Shown: piece by piece, positions 3,001 to 31,570 of the stretch
Layout: every line of letters starts with the position of its first letter
Position numbering within the stretch: position 1 is the stretch's first letter
NCBI GenBank assembly: GCA_039881145.1
Contig: JAYKKI010000004.1
Span: 43,495,001 to 43,559,000, forward strand
Direction of reading: 5' to 3'
Length of the DNA: 64,000 nt
Source of the DNA: Druceiella hillmani
Taxonomy: Eukaryota; Arthropoda; Insecta; Lepidoptera; Hepialidae
The notes under the pieces: generated by a model
What the model was told of the DNA's origin: nothing
The model's input: the letters and a program-made list of their open reading frames with translations, nothing else
The model's database searches: none
Program-made: the position numbers and the translations under genes

Positions 3001-3050
3001 TCTCATCGATGTAATTACTATTCAATGTACATATTATATACATATCCATA

Positions 3051-3054
<4 letters not shown>
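1..3054. other. A+T-rich DNA without recognisable feature
   Basis: No open frame above 60 codons and no TE motif that I can name. The plus strand at 1649-1770 reads KVEEASNRNINAASLVC, which recalls a transposase helix-turn-helix but is too short to assign. Confidence 0.5.

Positions 3055-3112
<58 letters not shown>
3055..3112. repeat. (TA)n microsatellite
   Basis: Uninterrupted TA repeat. Open frames across it on both strands (poly-Tyr-Ile) are artefacts. Confidence 0.95.
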
Positions 3113-3118
<6 letters not shown>

Positions 3119-3430
3119 ATATAATTATATAAATGACTCCATATGCAGATTAAATAAAAAAAGGCTCTTTTAAATGCAGATTTAAAAAACCTTGAAAAAT
3201 AAATGCTGAATAAAGGGAGGCGATAACTACTGTTAAAGCTTATTAATTATTATTTTTATTATTTAATAAAGATTTTTTCAGCGTAAACTTTTTCAAATAT
3301 TGTTAGTATCCACACATATATGTATGTGCGGATGGTGTAAAGGTTATTTTTTACGTGAATTAAAAAAAAATCATGATTTTTCAGGTCTTTTCCCTTTACT
3401 TGTGCTGTGAAACCTTGCTTCATGCCAAAT

Positions 3431-3502
3431 TTCACGATTCTAGATCACCGGGAACTACTCTATAAGTTCACGATTCTAGGTCAACGGGAAGTACTCTCAT
3501 GG
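3431..3502 (+). repeat. 36-bp tandem duplication
   Basis: The unit ttcacgattctag.tca.cgg is present twice (3431-3466, 3467-3502) with a few substitutions. It lies just outside the left inverted repeat of the 3.5-4.8 kb element. Confidence 0.85.
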
Positions 3503-3894
3503 AGGTATTATCATCAAAGGATTATTTTATTATCCTCGGCCTAATAGTTTTAGAGTATGATTTCTTTATTTTTTTTTAAATTTTTGTTACTGCGCATGAA
3601 AAACATTTTTTTTAAGAAGATTTGTCTTCCTAACGTAATGTTATTCAATCGTAATTATTGAAATGTTATTCAATCGTAATTATTGGCAACATAAAAATTA
3701 AACGATGGAACATGTATTTTTTCAATTAAGAAACATGAAAAGTGATTTTTGAACAATGCTAGTGTAAAAAAAAAATATGGCAACCTTGTGGAACTTTATT
3801 TCAAAAGCATCCACAATTCAGACAGATTCCAAAAGGTTTTTTAAACATTACAATTAATTCTGTAAACATTCGGAAAATACCTGCTGCATTTCAA

Positions 3895-4325
3895 CATCAA
3901 TTCGGAGTCAATTTGGGGGCTGAAATCCTGGATGGCAAAATTATCGGTCCATTTGAACTCCCTCGAAAGTTTAATGGAGTTCGTTATCTACGATTAAGAT
4001 ATTAAGAGACGAACTTGGTTATCTGTTTAATGAAATACCACAAGATGTACGTGACAGGATATGGCTATGGATGGTCTTAGCCCATTTCTCGCGACAAGTA
4101 ACTGAATACTTAAATGCAATTTACCCAAATCGATGGATAGGACGTGGCTGTACAATTGCATGGCTACCAAGTTTGCTAGACCTCAATCCGTTGAACTATT
4201 TTCTATGGGGATATTTCAAGGAGGCGATCTATGAGACTACTAAGGATAATGAACAACAATTCAGGCAAAAATTACACCATGTGTCTAAAGTGGTAAAAAC
4301 AACGAAAGGGTCTTACGAAGTTTAA
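3895..4325 (+). pseudogene. Broken IS630-like DDE transposase, C-terminal half
   Basis: Frame-corrected translation gives FGVNLGAEILDGKIIGPFEL, then RYLRL, IPQDVRDRIW, REHL-like spacing, YPNRWIGRGC.IAW and DLNPLNYFLWGYFKEAIYET. This is the order around the second and third catalytic acidic residues of this transposase family (canonical ..WPPRSPDLTPLDFFLWG..). The longest open stretch is 4071-4325. The N-terminal helix-turn-helix and first catalytic region are missing. It is non-functional. Confidence 0.85.
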
Positions 4326-4360
4326 AAATAAATTTTGTAAGGAGATGCTGGTTATGCACA

Positions 4361-4409
4361 AAAATACGGTATGATCATAAATGTAGTATTTACGATCATA
4401 CCGTATTTT
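4361..4409. repeat. 22-bp-arm hairpin inside the transposon
   Basis: 4361-4382 and 4388-4409 are reverse complements at 21 of 22 positions with a 5-nt loop. The hairpin lies just downstream of the transposase remnant. It could serve as a terminator-like structure or be an internal repeat of the element. Confidence 0.85.
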
Positions 4410-4883
4410 TTTTCTTTATCTTACTTGTTTTATTTTATCATCATCGAAAAGTTATCAATGGTATGGGTATAAAAAACATGTTATAAAATGACTTATTACC
4501 GGCAAAATTATATCTTTTTGGAATCAGTGTGGATTGTAGATGTTTTTAAAAAACAGTTCCATTAGGTTGCTATACATTTTTTTTACACTTCACGTTTCAG
4601 CGTTTCACTTTTATGTTGCCAATAATAACGAATGAATAAAATTTTAATTAGGGAGACGAATATTTTTTATTGTTATTCTGCTCTCTAATTTTTTATGGTC
4701 CAAGAAATAGTAGTAATACCTAATAAAAATTTTTTTTCATCCCCAGTAACAAAAATTTTAAAAAGAATTTAAAAATCCTATCTCTAAAACTATTAAGCCT
4801 AGGGTAATCAAATTTATTGTTTCGTATGTTCAATAACCCCTTCTATATCCAACATTTGGTTGGTCCACTCCTTACGGAACACC

Positions 4884-4886
<3 letters not shown>

Positions 4887-4949
<63 letters not shown>

Positions 4950-4961
4950 CATATATAAATA

Positions 4962-5046
<85 letters not shown>
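4887..5046. repeat. (TA)n microsatellite, interrupted
   Basis: Long TA repeat with a few interruptions (gtatatac, aaataaat, ttta). It begins about 75 bp after the IS630-like element ends. Confidence 0.95.
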
Positions 5047-5049
<3 letters not shown>

Positions 5050-5059
5050 AACTTGATAC

Positions 5060-6020
5060 ATATCCCATTGTTTCGATGTCGGTACAAGATTTCGAACTAG
5101 GTTGTGTGATTTTATTTTTATTTACTAGGGAAAAAAAGTAATAAATGGGGAATATTATAATAAATATTAATAATAAAGTAATAAAAGTTCTTGCTTTCCA
5201 ATTTAACAGTCTAAATTAGATATTGCTCTATGTTTTGACATAAAACTTACTTTCTTTTTTTCAAAAAATGAGCTGCCAACCTAAGACCTTTCTAAGTCAC
5301 ACTTCGAATTTGGAATGCAGGGTGAACGAAAAAAAAATATAAATTAGTAACGGATTTCAGAGTAAACAAAAAAATTAACGTTTCTTTAGATTTGTTTCAT
5401 TAAAGTTATTTTGAAGAAACGATTTTAATCTTAATAATGATATTTCATTTTGCTATTTAATGTAAAACTAAAAAAATAAGTATATGTCAGACTACGAAAA
5501 AATTAATAAGTTGACATAACTTCGTTAAAATTAAAAGCATATAGGTATTGCCTGTAAATTAGAAACGAAGGCCAAATTAATTCAATTATATTGTTTCTTA
5601 AGACATTTCAAATCGGGTGCACACGTCAGGACTAGAAATGTTAATTAACGGTATGGCGTGAAAATCGTTCAGATCCGGGAGATGTGTTAAAGAAGGAACC
5701 AACTCAAGTCAGAGAATTCACATACGACCCTGTAATTATTGAACCAATGTTACAAAACATTTTGAAGATGACGAACTTGGTAAAAATATAAATGGCCATA
5801 GTGCTGTTTGTAAACTTGGTACTGCCTCGATGAATAATAGGGCCAGGTTTGAAATTATTCATTCCAGTTGTTTAAGCGCAAGAAAATTTATTACAGTAGA
5901 AAATTAAAGAGAAGTTCTTCAGGAATTGACCCATACTATGTGCATAATAAAGTAAACATTTTTAAAATATTTATTTTAAATAATATTTTTTGTTTCTTAC
6001 ATTATTTAACACATGTGTAT
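5060..6020. other. Unassigned A+T-rich DNA
   Basis: No gene recognised. A plus-strand stretch at 5720-5870 has somewhat higher complexity (RIHIRPCNY...FEDDELGKNING) but no family match from memory. Confidence 0.45.
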
Positions 6021-6021
6021 T

Positions 6022-6190
<169 letters not shown>

Positions 6191-6199
6191 ATACATATA

Positions 6200-10296: not shown

Positions 10297-11060
10297 AATT
10301 TTTTAATAGAGGTGCACTTGCTTTGAATTTATATTATAATAACGCAAGCAATTTCGTTGGTGCAAAAAATGCAATAGACAACTTAAAAAACTTAATACAA
10401 TCAGACATTCATAATGACAACATAATACAATTTTTAAATAATTAAGGGGCAAATTAAAAGAGGTACTTTACACCTCCATGTTTACCACATTTTGATGGAC
10501 TGTAAGAAGCTGCCGTAAAATAATTTAAGGATCATTTTGTACGAATAATAGGCGATAAACTATTCACCTACGAAGAGTTAGACGCATACGTAGTAGAAAT
10601 CGAAGGCATTCTTAATTCGAGACTCACTCCTTTATCCGAAGATCCCAATAACCTTGAAGCCTTTACACCCCCCCCCCCCTCCTCCCCCCCACATTCTTAC
10701 TCATAGAAGATACATTCACAAGCATTCCCGATCGAAATTTGACATTTCACGCAGTTGACCGACTGTCAAGCTGACAACTTATTCAGTACATCAAACAACA
10801 CTTTCATAAAAGATGGTATGATGAGTATTTGAATCAATTGATGGTCGGAAACAAATGACAGGTTAAAACACATAATGAAATAAGAACCGGTATGCTAGTT
10901 TTGTTCAAATAAGCCTTTACACTGGCCACTTGGCCGCGTCATAGACATTCATCTGGGTGACGATGGCGAAGTTCAATATTGTCACCATAAAAACACATTT
11001 AGGAACATATAAACGATATATCCCGAACAGCTTCTTAACGATAACTTGTGATTTATAAAT
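10297..11060 (+). pseudogene. BEL/Pao retrotransposon pol remnant (integrase domain), split by the copia insertion
   Basis: Translated with frame corrections, the segment gives NNASNFVGA (the DN.TNFVG box), RYFTPPCLPHFDGL, FVRIIGDKLFTYEEL, EGILNSRLTPLSEDPNNLEAFTP and IPDRNLTFHAVDRLS. Then come KQHFHKRWYDEYL, ATW.RVIDIHLGDDGE and a final YPEQLL. This order is the integrase and C-terminal region of BEL/Pao polyproteins. Stops (for example after HFDGL) and frame changes are frequent. The conserved GHFL segment after EAFTP is replaced by a C-rich tract (10668-10690). The copia element begins just after the last recognisable residues. A weak possible upstream match (LIRIGYRIKN near 10075) was not included. 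Confidence 0.85.
10668..10690 (+). repeat. C-rich homopolymer tract
   Basis: Nearly uninterrupted C run with two T interruptions inside the BEL/Pao integrase remnant. It replaces codons for a conserved segment and is unusual in this A+T-rich window. Confidence 0.9.
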
Positions 11061-11067
11061 GTAATTA

Positions 11068-11203
11068 TGATAATGTTGTATCAAAATATGTAATTAGTGA
11101 ATAGTAGCGCCATCTCTTATCGTTTTGTAGAAACTGTTTGTCTGTTTATGACAATTTGCTAAAATAAAAGACAGTCTATTGCGATAAAACGTGTTTTACT
11201 AGA
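11068..11203 (+). repeat. 5' LTR of the copia-type element
   Basis: This 136-bp sequence begins tgataatgttgta and ends ttttactaga. It matches 14529-14664 with three substitutions and no gaps. The LTR is short for copia itself but within the range of short-LTR Ty1/copia lineages of animals. It should contain the promoter and R region. The termini are not the canonical TG...CA (the 3' end reads ..taga), so the exact ends could shift by one or two bases. Confidence 0.9.
11159..11168 (+). promoter_or_regulatory. TATA-like / AATAAA-containing motif in the 5' LTR
   Basis: The string ctaaaataaaag, conserved in both LTRs, is the best TATA-like or polyadenylation-like motif in the LTR. It lies about 40 bp before the LTR end. 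Its role is inferred from position only. Transcription from here would run through the captured hyd segment in the antisense direction. Confidence 0.3.
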
Positions 11204-11234
11204 GGTTATGGGCCCAGCACGCTTCCACTGCGCC
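11204..11234 (+). other. Extended primer-binding site, 31 nt complementary to initiator tRNA-Met
   Basis: Immediately after the 5' LTR comes ggttatgggcccagcac, the classical copia primer site. It pairs with the 3' end of the 39-nt 5'-half of tRNA-iMet. The complementarity does not stop after about 15 nt as in copia. It continues without mismatch through 11234, covering tRNA nucleotides 39 down to 9 as recalled for the Drosophila initiator tRNA, and then stops abruptly. In eukaryotic tRNAs, position 9 commonly carries m1G, which blocks reverse transcriptase. The next base enters antisense hyd sequence. The hyd-sense strand reads on into the tRNA match through ggcgcagtgg, so microhomology at the junction is likely. 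Confidence 0.85.
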
Positions 11235-12056
11235 TCCCGCTGTACCTCCGCCTCCGCTGCTGCTCCGTATGCCTGCTTACCCGAACATATCCTCCGAGAA
11301 CATGGCGTCTGCATCAATGATGACCGAGTGATCGGCCGGCGCCGCATGGAAGCCACCGTCCAGCAATGAGATGAGATCCTCTGGCACGTAGCCATCTCCA
11401 CCTTCTGTGCCTTCCCCCTCCTCACCCTCTTCATCATCACACGACAACAGGTTATTGACTGCAAGATTCACGTCCAAATTTGTGCGCTGTAATTCCCTTA
11501 TGATAAGACTGCGACTCTTTCCTTGTAGTACAACTTGCGCTTGTGCCACCAGATCTTCGGGCACAAATGGAGCCGGTACAGAAACAACACGGCCTGATCC
11601 GGACGTGCCTATTATCACTCCTGTCGCCCTAGTCGTTGATCCTTGAGTACTCGGTGTAGCTCTGATAGAATTCCTCATAATGCGAGCCCTAGTGCGGGGT
11701 TGCTGTCTAGAGCCGCTGCCTGTGCCCCCCGTCTTGCCCCCACCGCCCAGTCCTCCGCCACCACTCCCCCCGCCTGGTCCGCTGCTACCCCCCTTTGAGC
11801 TATCTTTCTTGCTCAAGTCCAGCCTGTCTGGTATGATGGTAAAAGCTGCTCGACACACACGTCCATCATCAAGTAGACAGGCAATGTGTGCAGGTCCAGC
11901 GGCCACTAGTCGCACTCCGCGCAGAGAGCCTAGTGCCGTTGAACAGACACTGCCCCCGGCATACCGGTTTGCTCGTTCTGCCACCTCTTTCAACCTATCA
12001 ATCAATTGATCCTCGGTTCCAGGCAACGGATGAACCACAAAATGCATGGCAAACGT
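11235..12056 (-). pseudogene. hyd: Captured hyd/UBR5 5' coding sequence (processed, truncated, inside retrotransposon)
   Basis: Hyd/UBR5 is a very large nuclear HECT-type E3 ubiquitin ligase. This frame matches its N-terminus: [14 protein letters not shown] at the start, then DDGRVCR, a Gly/Ser-rich linker, the UBA-domain core [31 protein letters not shown], an acidic stretch, [13 protein letters not shown] and FG. The likely first Met codon is at 12045-12047. About 270 codons are present without introns, although the animal gene is split here, so the source was spliced mRNA. After ..SEDMFG a TAA (11277-11279) replaces the Tyr conserved in the family. The same frame then continues AGIRSSSGGGG, so this is a nonsense mutation and not a natural end. 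The UBR box, MLLE and HECT domains are absent. The copy lies antisense to the host retroelement. It cannot encode a ligase. Confidence 0.88.
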
Positions 12057-12365
12057 CTCGTGTGTATTTTTTATTAAATTTTCCAATAAATCTGGTAACA
12101 GATCACTCTGCACCTGACATAATTCCAATTTTTGCTCTCACAACAATGGCCACTGGATATTACTACATGTACTAGAAGCAGGGCTAGGCGGGGGAGGCAT
12201 GTCCAGTCTATCAGCTGCGTCTTTGTTGCTGTCCTTAGCTGTATCTTTACACGGGCCGGGCACTGCACCTGAGCCTCCAGCGCCGCTGGTGCCACCGCCA
12301 GTGGATTGCTTCACAGATGACACCGTGAGTGGCGATTGAGTCTGCAACTCTCGTTTGTCTTTGGC
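12057..12365 (-). pseudogene. Second captured host-derived coding-like fragment, upstream and in frame with the hyd piece
   Basis: On the minus strand one frame runs from 12371 to 12138 (stop TGA at 12138-12140) and continues in the same frame into the hyd N-terminal block. The first part is G+C-rich with Ser/Gly/Pro-rich residues (TGGGTSGAGGSGAVPG, then RLDMPPPPSPASSTCS), like a disordered linker. The second part (12057-12137) is A+T-rich and reads [15 protein letters not shown]. It does not correspond to the known start of UBR5. It could be an internal hyd linker placed out of order (UBR5 proteins have Pro-rich PPPPSP segments in mid-protein), a 5' UTR, or another host transcript. I favour an internal hyd segment joined by template switching, with modest confidence. 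Confidence 0.45.
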
Positions 12366-12426
12366 AAGCAATCCACTGGCGGTGGCACCAGCGGCGCTGG
12401 AGGCTCAGGTGCAGTACCCGGCCCGT
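12251..12426. repeat. Inverted repeat with 61-bp arms and 54-bp loop
   Basis: 12251-12311 and 12366-12426 are reverse complements at 60 of 61 positions (the mismatch is at 12416). The arms are G+C-rich and encode the STGGGTSGAGG segment on opposite strands. The right arm ends where copia integrase sequence begins (12427). The arrangement fits snap-back self-priming of a cDNA 3' end followed by a switch back to the retroelement template. RNA read from either strand would form a long stable hairpin. Confidence 0.92.
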
Positions 12427-14498
12427 TGCTTCAAGACTTCAGACAACTCCGTACGAATTGTGGTATGGGAAGAAACCAGATCTCAGTCACATCCGTTTAT
12501 TTGGAAGTAAAGTCATGGTGCATATCCCCAAGGAACGTCGTTTGAAATGGGATAAGAAAGTCATGGAGCACATTTTAGTGAGATATAGTGAAGAGGTCAA
12601 GGGTTACCGGCTGTATAATCCTGCGAAGAAGAGTCTTGTTATAAGTAGAGATGTCATCGTGATGGAAAATGAATCAGAGCTCAAAGAAACAGGCAACAAG
12701 TCAGCTGGATTCCTAACGAAGAGACACTTGCAGATAACATAGAAAAAGAGAGCACAGTTTCAGTGGGGGATAAATCGTCTCATATTTCAGAGACAGAAGA
12801 CTGCCCATCAGATTATTCTTCAGTGTATGAGGAGAGTAATGAAACAATAACGGAAACTTCATCTCCAACCACCGACATATTAGACACAGAAGTCCAGACG
12901 ACATCAACTCCAGAACAGACACCAGAATTACCTGAAAAGCGTTCCAGGAAAGCATCTGAACGGTATGGTTTTACATGTCTTTCCAACACTGTTTCAGCAT
13001 TAGAGGAGATAGTGTTCTCAGAGGCTCTTGCAGGGCCTAAGAGTGAACAGTGGAAGAATGCCATGGCCGACGAGGTGCAGTCTTTTGAGGACAGCGATGC
13101 ATGGGAGCTCGTTGACAACCCCGGTGATGTGACAATTGTGAAGTGCAGGTGGGTGCTTAACAAAAAGTTTGATGTGGACAATAATGTGCGGTTTCGGGCT
13201 AGATTGGTGGCAAAAGGTTTCTCGCAGAAACCTAGAATTGACTATACGGACACGTTCTCTCCCGTGGTTAGACATTCAACGCTCAGATTATTGTTTGCTC
13301 TCAGTGTTAAGATGAATATGAGTATTGATCATTTGGATGTTACTACAGCATTCCTAAACGGTTTTTTGAGAGAAACTATTTACATGTCATTATCTGAAGG
13401 TTTTATGAACAAAAGTGGGGGAAAGGTTTTAAAATTGAAAAGAGCAATCTATGGGTTAAAACAGTCTTCCCTTGCGTGGTATGACAGAGTTAAAGATTTA
13501 CTATGCAAATTAAATTTTAAAAACAGTCAATATGAGCCTTGTTTGTTCACAAAAACTAAAGGTGAAGCTAAAATTATTGTGGCCTTATATGTGGATGACT
13601 TTTTAATTTTTTCGAATTGTCCTGTTGAAAGTAAAAAATTAAAAGATACTTGAGGATCAGAATTTAAGCTAAAAGATTTAGGACCTGTAAGGCAATACTT
13701 AGGCATGAGAATAAATGTTAGTAAAAATGTAATTACTGTAGATCAGCAGCAGTATATTGATCAGCTATTAACTAGGTTCAATATGTTGGATTTTAAAATG
13801 CATGAAACACCAATAGAGTGTAAATTAAATTTAGATTAACCTGATAAATGTGTACCTGATGTTCCATATCAGAAGTTAATTGGATCATTAATGTATTTGG
13901 CAGTATTAACCAGGCCTGACATTTCCTATTCTGTTAGCTATTTAAGCCAATTTAACAGTTGCTATGATCTTACACATTGGCATTATGCTAAACGCATTCT
14001 TAAATATTTGTAATGTACAAAAACTTGCTGTTTAAAATATTTTAAGGGCGGTAGCAAGTTAGAGGGCTTTGTAGATAGCGATTGGGCCAGCGATGCCATA
14101 GATAGGAAGTCCTACACGGGCTTTTGCTTTACTATGTCGGGATCTGCCATTTCATGGCAAAGCAGAAAGCAAAAGTCCGTATCGCTCTCTAGTACAGAGG
14201 CAGAATATACTGCTTTGTCTGAGGCAGCTCGCGAAGAAGTGTATTTGAGAAACCTGTTACATGAAATAACTGGTAACTTATCTGTAATACAGATCTATTG
14301 TGATAATCAGAGTACTTTAAAGTTGTCATTAAGTAACCAAAGTCACAACAGATGATGATAAGAGATGTTGTTAAAAATAAATATATTAAAGTTATGTACT
14401 TGTGTAGTGAGGAAATGCCTGCCGATTTACTTACCAAAGGACTGTGTACTATTAAGCATTATAAGTTTATGTGTAAATTGGACATTGTACTTAAATAA
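12427..14498 (+). pseudogene. Degenerate copia pol: integrase C-terminus, reverse transcriptase, RNase H
   Basis: The integrase C-terminal segment starts at about 12435 (TTPYELWYGKKP, then IRLFGSKVMVHIP and GYRLYNP). A frame change near 12690 leads into the acidic linker. Reverse transcriptase follows: KCRWVLNKKFD, RARLVAKGFSQ, TDTFSPVVR, LDVTTAFLNGFL, AIYGLKQS, and the catalytic YVDDFLIF at about 13590. RNase H follows with SDWASDAIDRKSYTG, SSTEAEY and the DNQS box. In-frame stops are at 13651-13653, 13837-13839 and 14011-14013. A further frame change around 14340-14360 leads to the C-terminus MPADLLTKGL, ending at 14496-14498. The catalytic motifs remain readable but the polyprotein is broken. 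Gag, protease and the integrase DDE core are missing upstream. Confidence 0.93.
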
Positions 14499-14515
14499 AA
14501 TTGTTGTTTATTTTG

Positions 14516-14528
14516 ATAAGTGGGGGTG
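14516..14528 (+). other. Polypurine tract of the copia-type element
   Basis: ataagtgggggtg lies directly before the 3' LTR. Plus-strand DNA synthesis of Ty1/copia elements is primed at such a purine-rich run. Confidence 0.75.
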
Positions 14529-14664
14529 TGATAATGTTGTATCAAAATATGTAATTAGTGAATAGTAGCGCCATCTCTTATCGTTTTGTAGAAACTGTTT
14601 GTCTATCTATGACAATTTTCTAAAATAAAAGACAGTCTATTGCGATAAAACGTGTTTTACTAGA
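14529..14664 (+). repeat. 3' LTR of the copia-type element
   Basis: Same 136 bp as 11068-11203 with three substitutions: two in tctatctatg against tctgtttatg, and one in aattttct against aatttgct. It is followed by gtaatta, repeating the sequence before the 5' LTR. Confidence 0.9.
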
Positions 14665-14671
14665 GTAATTA

Positions 14672-30719: not shown

Positions 30720-31190
30720 TACACGGTACACGGGCAGTACACGGCGCCAGCTAAGATTTGAAACGCGTTGGTGAACAGACCGATGGGTGCGTTGTGCAAA
30801 GGGTGAGCGAGTGAGACTATGTTATTACAGTGGCCTTATATGCTTAAAATGCTTGATCCGCTACTAGAGTCCAGGCAACAGATGTTTTGTCTGATTTCTT
30901 TGATATGTCTGGCTTCTTTGATAAGCATTAAGCGGCACTTATAGCGATTCGATGTCGGCTATGTTTTTTTTATATTAACTGATGACAAAACACCGAAATT
31001 CGTCGATTGTTTTCGGTTTGAGGAGAAGATGATATTCTCGATCTTTTCCTACGGGTTTTGATACCATCTTGGGATATGCGATACCCAAGCAATATTGTAG
31101 TTGCGGGGGTTGACGGTGATGCCATTTTTTTCGAGCTGCTGAAGTACCGTTTCGAGGCATTGACGGTATTCGGTTTCACTCCTTTATATT
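30720..31190 (-). pseudogene. Ty3/gypsy pol fragment: reverse transcriptase thumb and start of RNase H
   Basis: On the minus strand, CLETVLQQLEKNGITVNP is followed by YRISQDGIK, a Lys-rich stretch and PKTIDEFRCFV (canonical LGY.IS.DGIKP..EKV..I..FP.P.T..ELR.FLG). Further along comes VSLAHPLHNAPIGLFTNAF.ILAGAVY (canonical LAHPDP.AP..L.TDAS..AIGAVL). The RNase H catalytic TDAS reads TNAF, so it is inactivated. The fragment is short and bounded by other TE pieces. Confidence 0.8.
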
Positions 31191-31329
31191 ATAGAGAGAT
31201 AATTAAATATCAAACGTTGGCCTATTGCGTGAAAAAGTTAACATTTGCTTTTTCAATAAAGCGCAAACCAGTCTACATGATTCGTAAATTACGCTTATCT
31301 TTTATTACACTTATCTTTAATTACTTCGG

Positions 31330-31570
31330 CACAGGAAGAGCAACGATCACATTCCTAGGGAAGCGCGAAAAAGAGCAACTAAGCATTTGGGAGAATCTTC
31401 CTCAACTTGCCCTACAAAAAAGTCGGGAGGTATATAAAATGTGAATACTGTCCTTTAGCTAAAGATCGAAATATGAAGTATAGCTGCACTACATGTGAAA
31501 AACCAATAAGCAGGGAGTATGCTATTTTCAAATGCAAAAATTGCATAAACAATTTTGGTAGTTTAAGAGT
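31330..31570 (+). pseudogene. piggyBac transposase C-terminal remnant (cysteine-rich domain)
   Basis: After a frame change near 31430 the plus strand reads KCEYCPLAKDRNMKYSC, then TCEKPISREYAIFKCKNC. The spacing C-x2-C...C-x2-C...C-x2-C matches the C-terminal cross-brace zinc region of piggyBac transposases. Just upstream, CPTKK resembles the linker that precedes it. The catalytic domain is not present in recognisable form. Confidence 0.7.

Follow-up and report, generated by a model that had tools for sequence, protein, structure and literature searches.

Antisense and misordered hyd/UBR5 sequence, with an extended initiator tRNA complement at its seam, inside a copia-type retrotransposon of Druceiella hillmani

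Introduction

How does the coding sequence of a host gene come to stand, antisense and without introns, between the long terminal repeats (LTRs) of a retrotransposon? The question is raised by a stretch of 64,000 nucleotides (nt) from Druceiella hillmani (GenBank assembly GCA_039881145.1, contig JAYKKI010000004.1, positions 43,495,001 to 43,559,000), hereafter the window. Here a copia element at 11068-14664 is bounded by an LTR pair, with a primer-binding site (PBS), a polypurine tract and a target-site duplication all present, and antisense hyd/UBR5 sequence occupies the slot of gag, protease and most of the integrase. The best explanation is probably template switching during reverse transcription, with read-through into the primer transfer RNA (tRNA), several jumps, a fold-back and a single integration.

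LTR elements are held responsible for many animal retrogenes. While the steps that give rise to a retrocopy are usually inferred from two seams, five are preserved in order at this locus, including that of the primer tRNA, and the path of the reverse transcriptase (RT) thereby becomes readable.

Results

Two pieces of hyd in the wrong order

The first hyd piece (11235..12047, minus strand, antisense to the element) extends from the methionine of MHFVV to about residue 280. On the minus strand, 256 residues of the hyd N-terminus read open from 12047 to 11280, and the piece contains one in-frame TAA, after DMFG. The antisense frame at 11277-12137 matches the Pfam family E3_UbLigase_EDD (UBR5/EDD UBA domain) at 2.6e-26. 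The N-terminus also matches UBR5 chains in PDB and, at E<=0.001, 546 proteins that are full-length by size, the scored set being the 7975 candidates that share most words and the best 120 of the 546 matches being those listed; no relatives were found in viral contigs. In the Lepidoptera-type proteins, the MHFVV start lies at residue 4 (26/28), at residue 1 (one protein) or in variant form (one protein).

The second piece (12166..12365, minus strand) reads KDKRELQ...SPASSTCS and corresponds to residues ~570-636, the place that this segment takes in all 28 Lepidoptera-type proteins examined. Searched alone against PDB, it returned no UBR5 and two weak unrelated rows only; we identify it as hyd because full-length insect proteins carry the same segment. 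Read against these proteins, the two pieces are in the wrong order, since residues ~570-636 precede the MHFVV start in the element, so that the late piece stands upstream of the leader and the ATG.

The 118 nt that separate them (12048..12165, minus strand, with a TGA at 12135-12137) are presumed, from position and frame alone, to be the hyd leader, perhaps with a degraded first ATG (now ACG). A third host gene had been considered for a 38-residue reading upstream of the ATG; this candidate was dropped, the reading having no match in PDB, and the segment was taken as presumed leader.

The hyd source and its donor

Intron positions were inferred from the ends of predicted protein fragments in relatives, and not from DNA. 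We inspected 188 hyd gene fragments (the best 120 of 174, plus 68 from a second search); a filter that required an alignment of at least 20 residues with the moth protein P0129, at 78% identity or more, left 28 rows, among which P0108 is labelled Gongylonema, not an insect. Fragments break before RLKEV (P0035, P0039, P0043, P0048) and after SSQG (the same four and P0047). A less direct break follows FGYAAVR (P0094, P0109-P0111), a place at which full-length moth proteins also vary. The fourth, KDKR(D/E)LQ|NQSPLTV, is marked on its left side by P0246, P0250 and P0254, with P0251 also ending there, and on its right side by P0271, P0277 and P0282. The element crosses all four inferred positions (one of them less direct) intron-free, which indicates that the source of hyd was a spliced messenger RNA (mRNA). 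The moth-like hyd fragment P0241 marks the fourth position as well, since its reading continues across an apparent intron there, with KDKRDLQ before it and NQSPLTV after it.

The hyd N-terminus was aligned in 35 rows: the element, 28 Lepidoptera-type rows (27 moths and butterflies, and P0151) and six other insects; the moth rows P0123, P0126, P0147, P0152 and P0153 were excluded. Identity to the 28 rows is 81.5-86.2% over 252-254 positions, and to the six other insects 64.5-70.6%. In the tree of these rows (midpoint-rooted, for drawing only), the element joins the 28 with support of 100/100 and branches outside them; the support that unites the 28 without the element is 91/92, below the starred level. 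Because the element groups with the Lepidoptera-type rows but outside them, we place the donor of hyd, which was presumably the host, on an early branch of the Lepidoptera or close to that order. Nineteen columns that are invariant in the 28 differ in the element (two are insertions), three of them in common with at least three of the six other insects. One residue, R203, is invariant in the 34 other aligned rows and is C in the element.

Near residue 265, the segments YAAIRS and YINS after DIFG vary among moth hyd proteins (P0144, P0150, P0130, P0145), a variation that suggests alternative micro-exons.

An extended tRNA complement at the left seam

The left seam, at 11204..11234 on the plus strand, consists of the PBS and an extended copy of initiator tRNA-Met, the complement of nt 39 to 9 in the printed human numbering; standard tRNA numbering may move the end of the copy by one. 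It matches the human initiator tRNA-Met (reference sequence from PMC8216282) at 30/31 positions, the sole mismatch being nt 16. The best alternative match elsewhere in the window has 12/31 mismatches. We presume that insect initiator tRNA-Met carries T at nt 16, a form that was not found in the literature searched. Rfam gave no match for a 61-base stretch round the PBS, which is unsurprising for half a tRNA, and neither viral contigs nor prokaryote genomes contained the exact tRNA patterns.

Copia primers are 39 nt long, with a PBS of ~14-15 nt. The first part of the seam, 11204-11217, is the complement of nt 26-39, in keeping with a primer made from the 5′ half of this tRNA, which is what Drosophila copia is reported to use. 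Copia is reported to prime with a half-tRNA, at the anticodon loop (PMC5371799, PMC10886601). The copy then continues and stops at nt 9, where hyd begins, although the GG at positions 9-10 could also be a hyd glycine codon. In human tRNA-iMet, G9 is virtually fully m1G, and methylation at N1 aborts or scrambles reverse transcription; m2G10, m2G26 and t6A37 are further modifications of this tRNA (PMC7293042). In Ty1 and Ty3, the sequence of the primer tRNA is not inherited, and strong-stop DNA that has copied the tRNA is a discarded product (PMC5371799). To judge from the seam, and unlike the situation in Ty1 and Ty3, the primer-tRNA copy seems to have been inherited in this element.

A fold-back where copia resumes

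At the other end of the hyd sequence, 61 nt of hyd (12366..12426, plus strand) lie on the strand opposite to the rest, in the sense direction of the element. They form the right arm of a fold-back whose left arm (12251..12311, minus strand) lies within the second hyd piece; the arms are 54 nt apart and complementary at 60/61 positions, and the end of the right arm is the exact point where copia resumes, at the integrase C-terminus. The predicted RNA fold of the region reaches -162.6 kcal/mol (z -19), and none of 200 shuffles was as good. The two bases at the turn, 12364-12365, fit hyd imperfectly and may be untemplated. The divergence of the arms (1/61) and that of the LTRs (3/137) are compatible with one age, as if both pairs had been made together.

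The original prediction, that of an intronless antisense copy of the hyd N-terminal coding region, is thus upheld for orientation and splicing; it fails in describing the capture as simply N-terminal, since there are two misordered pieces, part of them on both strands. It had also overlooked the 31-nt tRNA copy, the fold-back and the decay of pol.

One set of LTRs around a dead copia remnant

The LTR pair, primer site, polypurine tract and flanking repeats that had been reported for this locus are real. The 5′ LTR (11068..11203, plus strand) measures 136 base pairs (bp), or 137 bp counting a shared G at 11204, and the 3′ LTR lies at 14529..14664 on the same strand (to 14665 with the shared G). 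They differ at 3/137 positions (97.81% identity), or at 3/136 under the shorter definition. The G-rich polypurine tract AAGTGGGGGTG (14518..14528, plus strand) is directly 5′ of the 3′ LTR. Both sides of the element carry GTAATTA (11061..11067 and 14665..14671), a target-site duplication of 6-7 bp that adjoins the LTR ends and contains AATTA; moving the LTR end one base further shortens it to TAATTA (6 bp), and a 5-bp duplication would require a right LTR end not common to the 5′ LTR. BLAST of the 64-kb window (E 1e-3 for DNA, 1 for protein) revealed neither the element nor the hyd N-terminus a second time.

What is left of copia pol (12427..14528, plus strand) comprises the SH3-like integrase C-terminus, RT and RNase H. 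Pfam recognised RVT_2 (2.8e-56) and a retroviral SH3-like domain (2.5e-26) on the plus strand, and the order of an SH3-like integrase end followed by an RVT_2-type RT matches the layout of the Copia superfamily. The region that we take by its motifs to be RNase H matched no Pfam family at 0.001 and gave merely two unrelated sub-cutoff matches. Because pol carries three in-frame stops (13651-13653, 13837-13839 and 14011-14013) and two frame changes (between 12673 and 12742, where the integrase end gives way to RT, and between 14337 and 14355), the present copy of the element is dead. No relatives of pol were found in viral contigs or prokaryote genome contigs, as expected of such collections, and none of its DNA among phages.

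Discussion

A path of reverse transcription

We propose the following course of events. A copia virus-like particle would have reverse-transcribed its own RNA together with a co-packaged hyd mRNA. Plus-strand strong-stop DNA would have run through the LTR into the half-tRNA primer, copying it from nt 39 back to 9/10, where the methylated G9 would have stopped synthesis. The normal strand transfer being missed, the 3′ end would have moved to a spliced hyd mRNA in the region of codon 280 and been extended along it toward the 5′ end of the message, via the start codon and into the leader. A second jump would have landed on hyd RNA at codon ~635; after copying as far as codon ~570, synthesis would have switched to the complementary hyd strand for 61 nt, either by snap-back on the new strand or on another hyd complementary DNA (cDNA). 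With a final jump, synthesis would have returned to copia, on the minus-strand cDNA of the integrase C-terminus, and run out through the 3′ LTR; the linear DNA so made, which had a proper LTR at either end, would have integrated as one unit.

In the plus-strand direction, every hyd template bar the fold-back has the sense of the mRNA, as reverse transcription needs. We prefer this order because the opposite direction would need an antisense hyd strand that was rearranged beforehand, and a tRNA whose junction runs through its middle. The whole was integrated once, since all its pieces lie within a single LTR pair and a single target duplication. Template switching followed by integration as one unit, which had been advanced before this analysis, is supported by these single LTR and duplication pairs, and also by the spliced hyd, the tRNA copy, the fold-back and the scrambled order.

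Several points weigh against this course of events. The number of jumps within one strand is many, and no convincing microhomology could be shown at the switch points; a GG may be shared where tRNA gives way to hyd, the host hyd and parent copia sequences not being at hand for comparison. The RT must also have copied past m2G10, m2G26 and t6A37, although these are milder blocks than m1G. The m1G9 mark is itself carried over by analogy from the human tRNA to an insect, the parent PBS may naturally exceed 14 nt, and the identity of the leader is only presumed. Moreover, the duplication of 6-7 bp is slightly off the 5 bp usual for copia, the length given for the Copia families compared in PMC10886601.

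Among other explanations, the parent copia family might already have had a 31-nt tRNA complement extending past the PBS, with hyd captured beside it by template switching. We consider this unlikely: the end of the copy, at tRNA position 9, coincides exactly with the start of hyd, and copia PBSs are only ~14-15 nt long. A circular, back-spliced hyd RNA would bring a late exon to lie immediately before the exon with the start codon; the order of codons ~570-635 followed by leader and ATG suits such an RNA, pseudogenes derived from circular RNAs are a named class in reviews, and from the order of the pieces this origin was first thought likely. The relatives' fragments led us to reject it. SPASSTCS is present in 52 of the 68 fragments from the second search, and all 52 continue past TCS into D/E-T; none breaks at TCS, and in 33 the break comes only after SH. 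Likewise, SPASSTCSDT is found in 119/120 full-length rows (the best 120 of 546), five out of five moth-type fragments (P0241, P0266, P0271, P0277 and P0282) continue through DTSTSH, and the next exon, which begins with ERAKR, is seen in eight fragments. Judged by these relatives, the wrong-order junction TCS|leader lies six codons within an exon, and it would not have been made by splicing unless the exon layout differs in this host. A circular template is thus very improbable.

Slightly less probable still is a processed hyd pseudogene made by a LINE-type (long interspersed nuclear element) mechanism, inserted into an older copia copy and then altered by deletions and an inversion. It could account for both the spliced sequence and the antisense orientation, but leaves unexplained the tRNA copy that abuts hyd and the fold-back at the copia junction, and on reading the junctions, with no dedicated scan made, we saw no poly(A), no hyd 3′ end and no second target duplication. 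An assembly or library chimera, which would also undo the proposed course of events, has in our view the smallest chance of all: the target duplication, the diverged LTRs, the decayed pol, and the stop and R203->C in hyd point to an old resident insertion. Template switching within a copia particle, with the tRNA copied on the way, is the reading that we retain below.

Precedents and implications

LTR-mediated retroposition is already known, and this chimera is an unusually informative variant of it. LTR-mediated retrocopies have been described from invertebrate as well as vertebrate animals (Tan et al. 2016, via PMC5408686 and PMC9674220), and template switching has been proposed in a moth for Pxyfem, the W-linked retrocopies of PxyMasc in Plutella xylostella (PMC9674220). 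Animal precedent is therefore stronger than was allowed by the original prediction, which called such capture rare for animal copia elements.

Like the chimeras of Tan et al. 2016, which join host mRNA sequence to a discontinuous LTR element and are ascribed to template switching between co-packaged RNAs, the element described here combines both kinds of sequence; it differs in that hyd is antisense and split into two misordered pieces, part of it being doubled into a fold-back, and in that a copied tRNA primer adjoins it. Pxyfem is similar in that a spliced partial host cDNA lies beside LTR-element fragments in a moth, and it expresses small RNAs against its parent gene. However, its LTRs are unidentifiable and 11 copies are described, whereas here both the LTRs and the target duplication are preserved, in the single copy known from the window. 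The half-tRNA priming of Drosophila copia and Ty5 has its parallel here in a PBS that corresponds to initiator tRNA-Met on its anticodon side, and in a similarity that begins at about the half-tRNA end; the difference is that this similarity extends to tRNA nt 9, so that the tRNA itself seems to have served as a template for DNA. The L1 chimeras of PMC13174262 also contain tRNA halves copied into retroelement insertions, mostly antisense; those are target-primed events and do not involve the primer tRNA of an LTR element. In a narrow literature search, we found no description of an LTR retrocopy with a primer-tRNA copy in its seam, and no report of antisense capture of host genes by LTR elements. 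We know of no described retrocopy that has antisense misordered pieces, a fold-back and a primer-tRNA copy.

Should the end of the tRNA copy really mark a methylated base, a tRNA modification would be tied to the site of host-gene capture. Furthermore, an antisense, hairpin-forming copy of a host gene under an LTR is the type of raw material that has been proposed, for Pxyfem, to give rise to the small RNAs of moth sex determination. It is conceivable, though we would put it somewhat short of an even chance, that the m1G9 stop triggered the capture of hyd, which would make a product that yeast Ty elements discard a recurrent entry point for host genes, and that transcripts driven by the LTR, with antisense hyd and a 61-bp hyd hairpin, could feed small RNAs against hyd.

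Other features of the window

Upstream of the element, a short plus-strand reading at 10524-10706, FKDHFVRIIGDKLFTYEELDAYVVEIEGILNSRLTPLSEDP, gave no Pfam match; we take it to resemble the end of a BEL/Pao integrase. A run of C with few T, 12 C being consecutive, stands at 10668-10690, in a window whose G+C content is ~25-43% per 2 kb. A 140-codon open frame at 31022-31444 has no Pfam match. Long TA/AT dinucleotide tracts of up to 182 bases occur at 3031-6199, 22692, 36412, 53173 and 60644.

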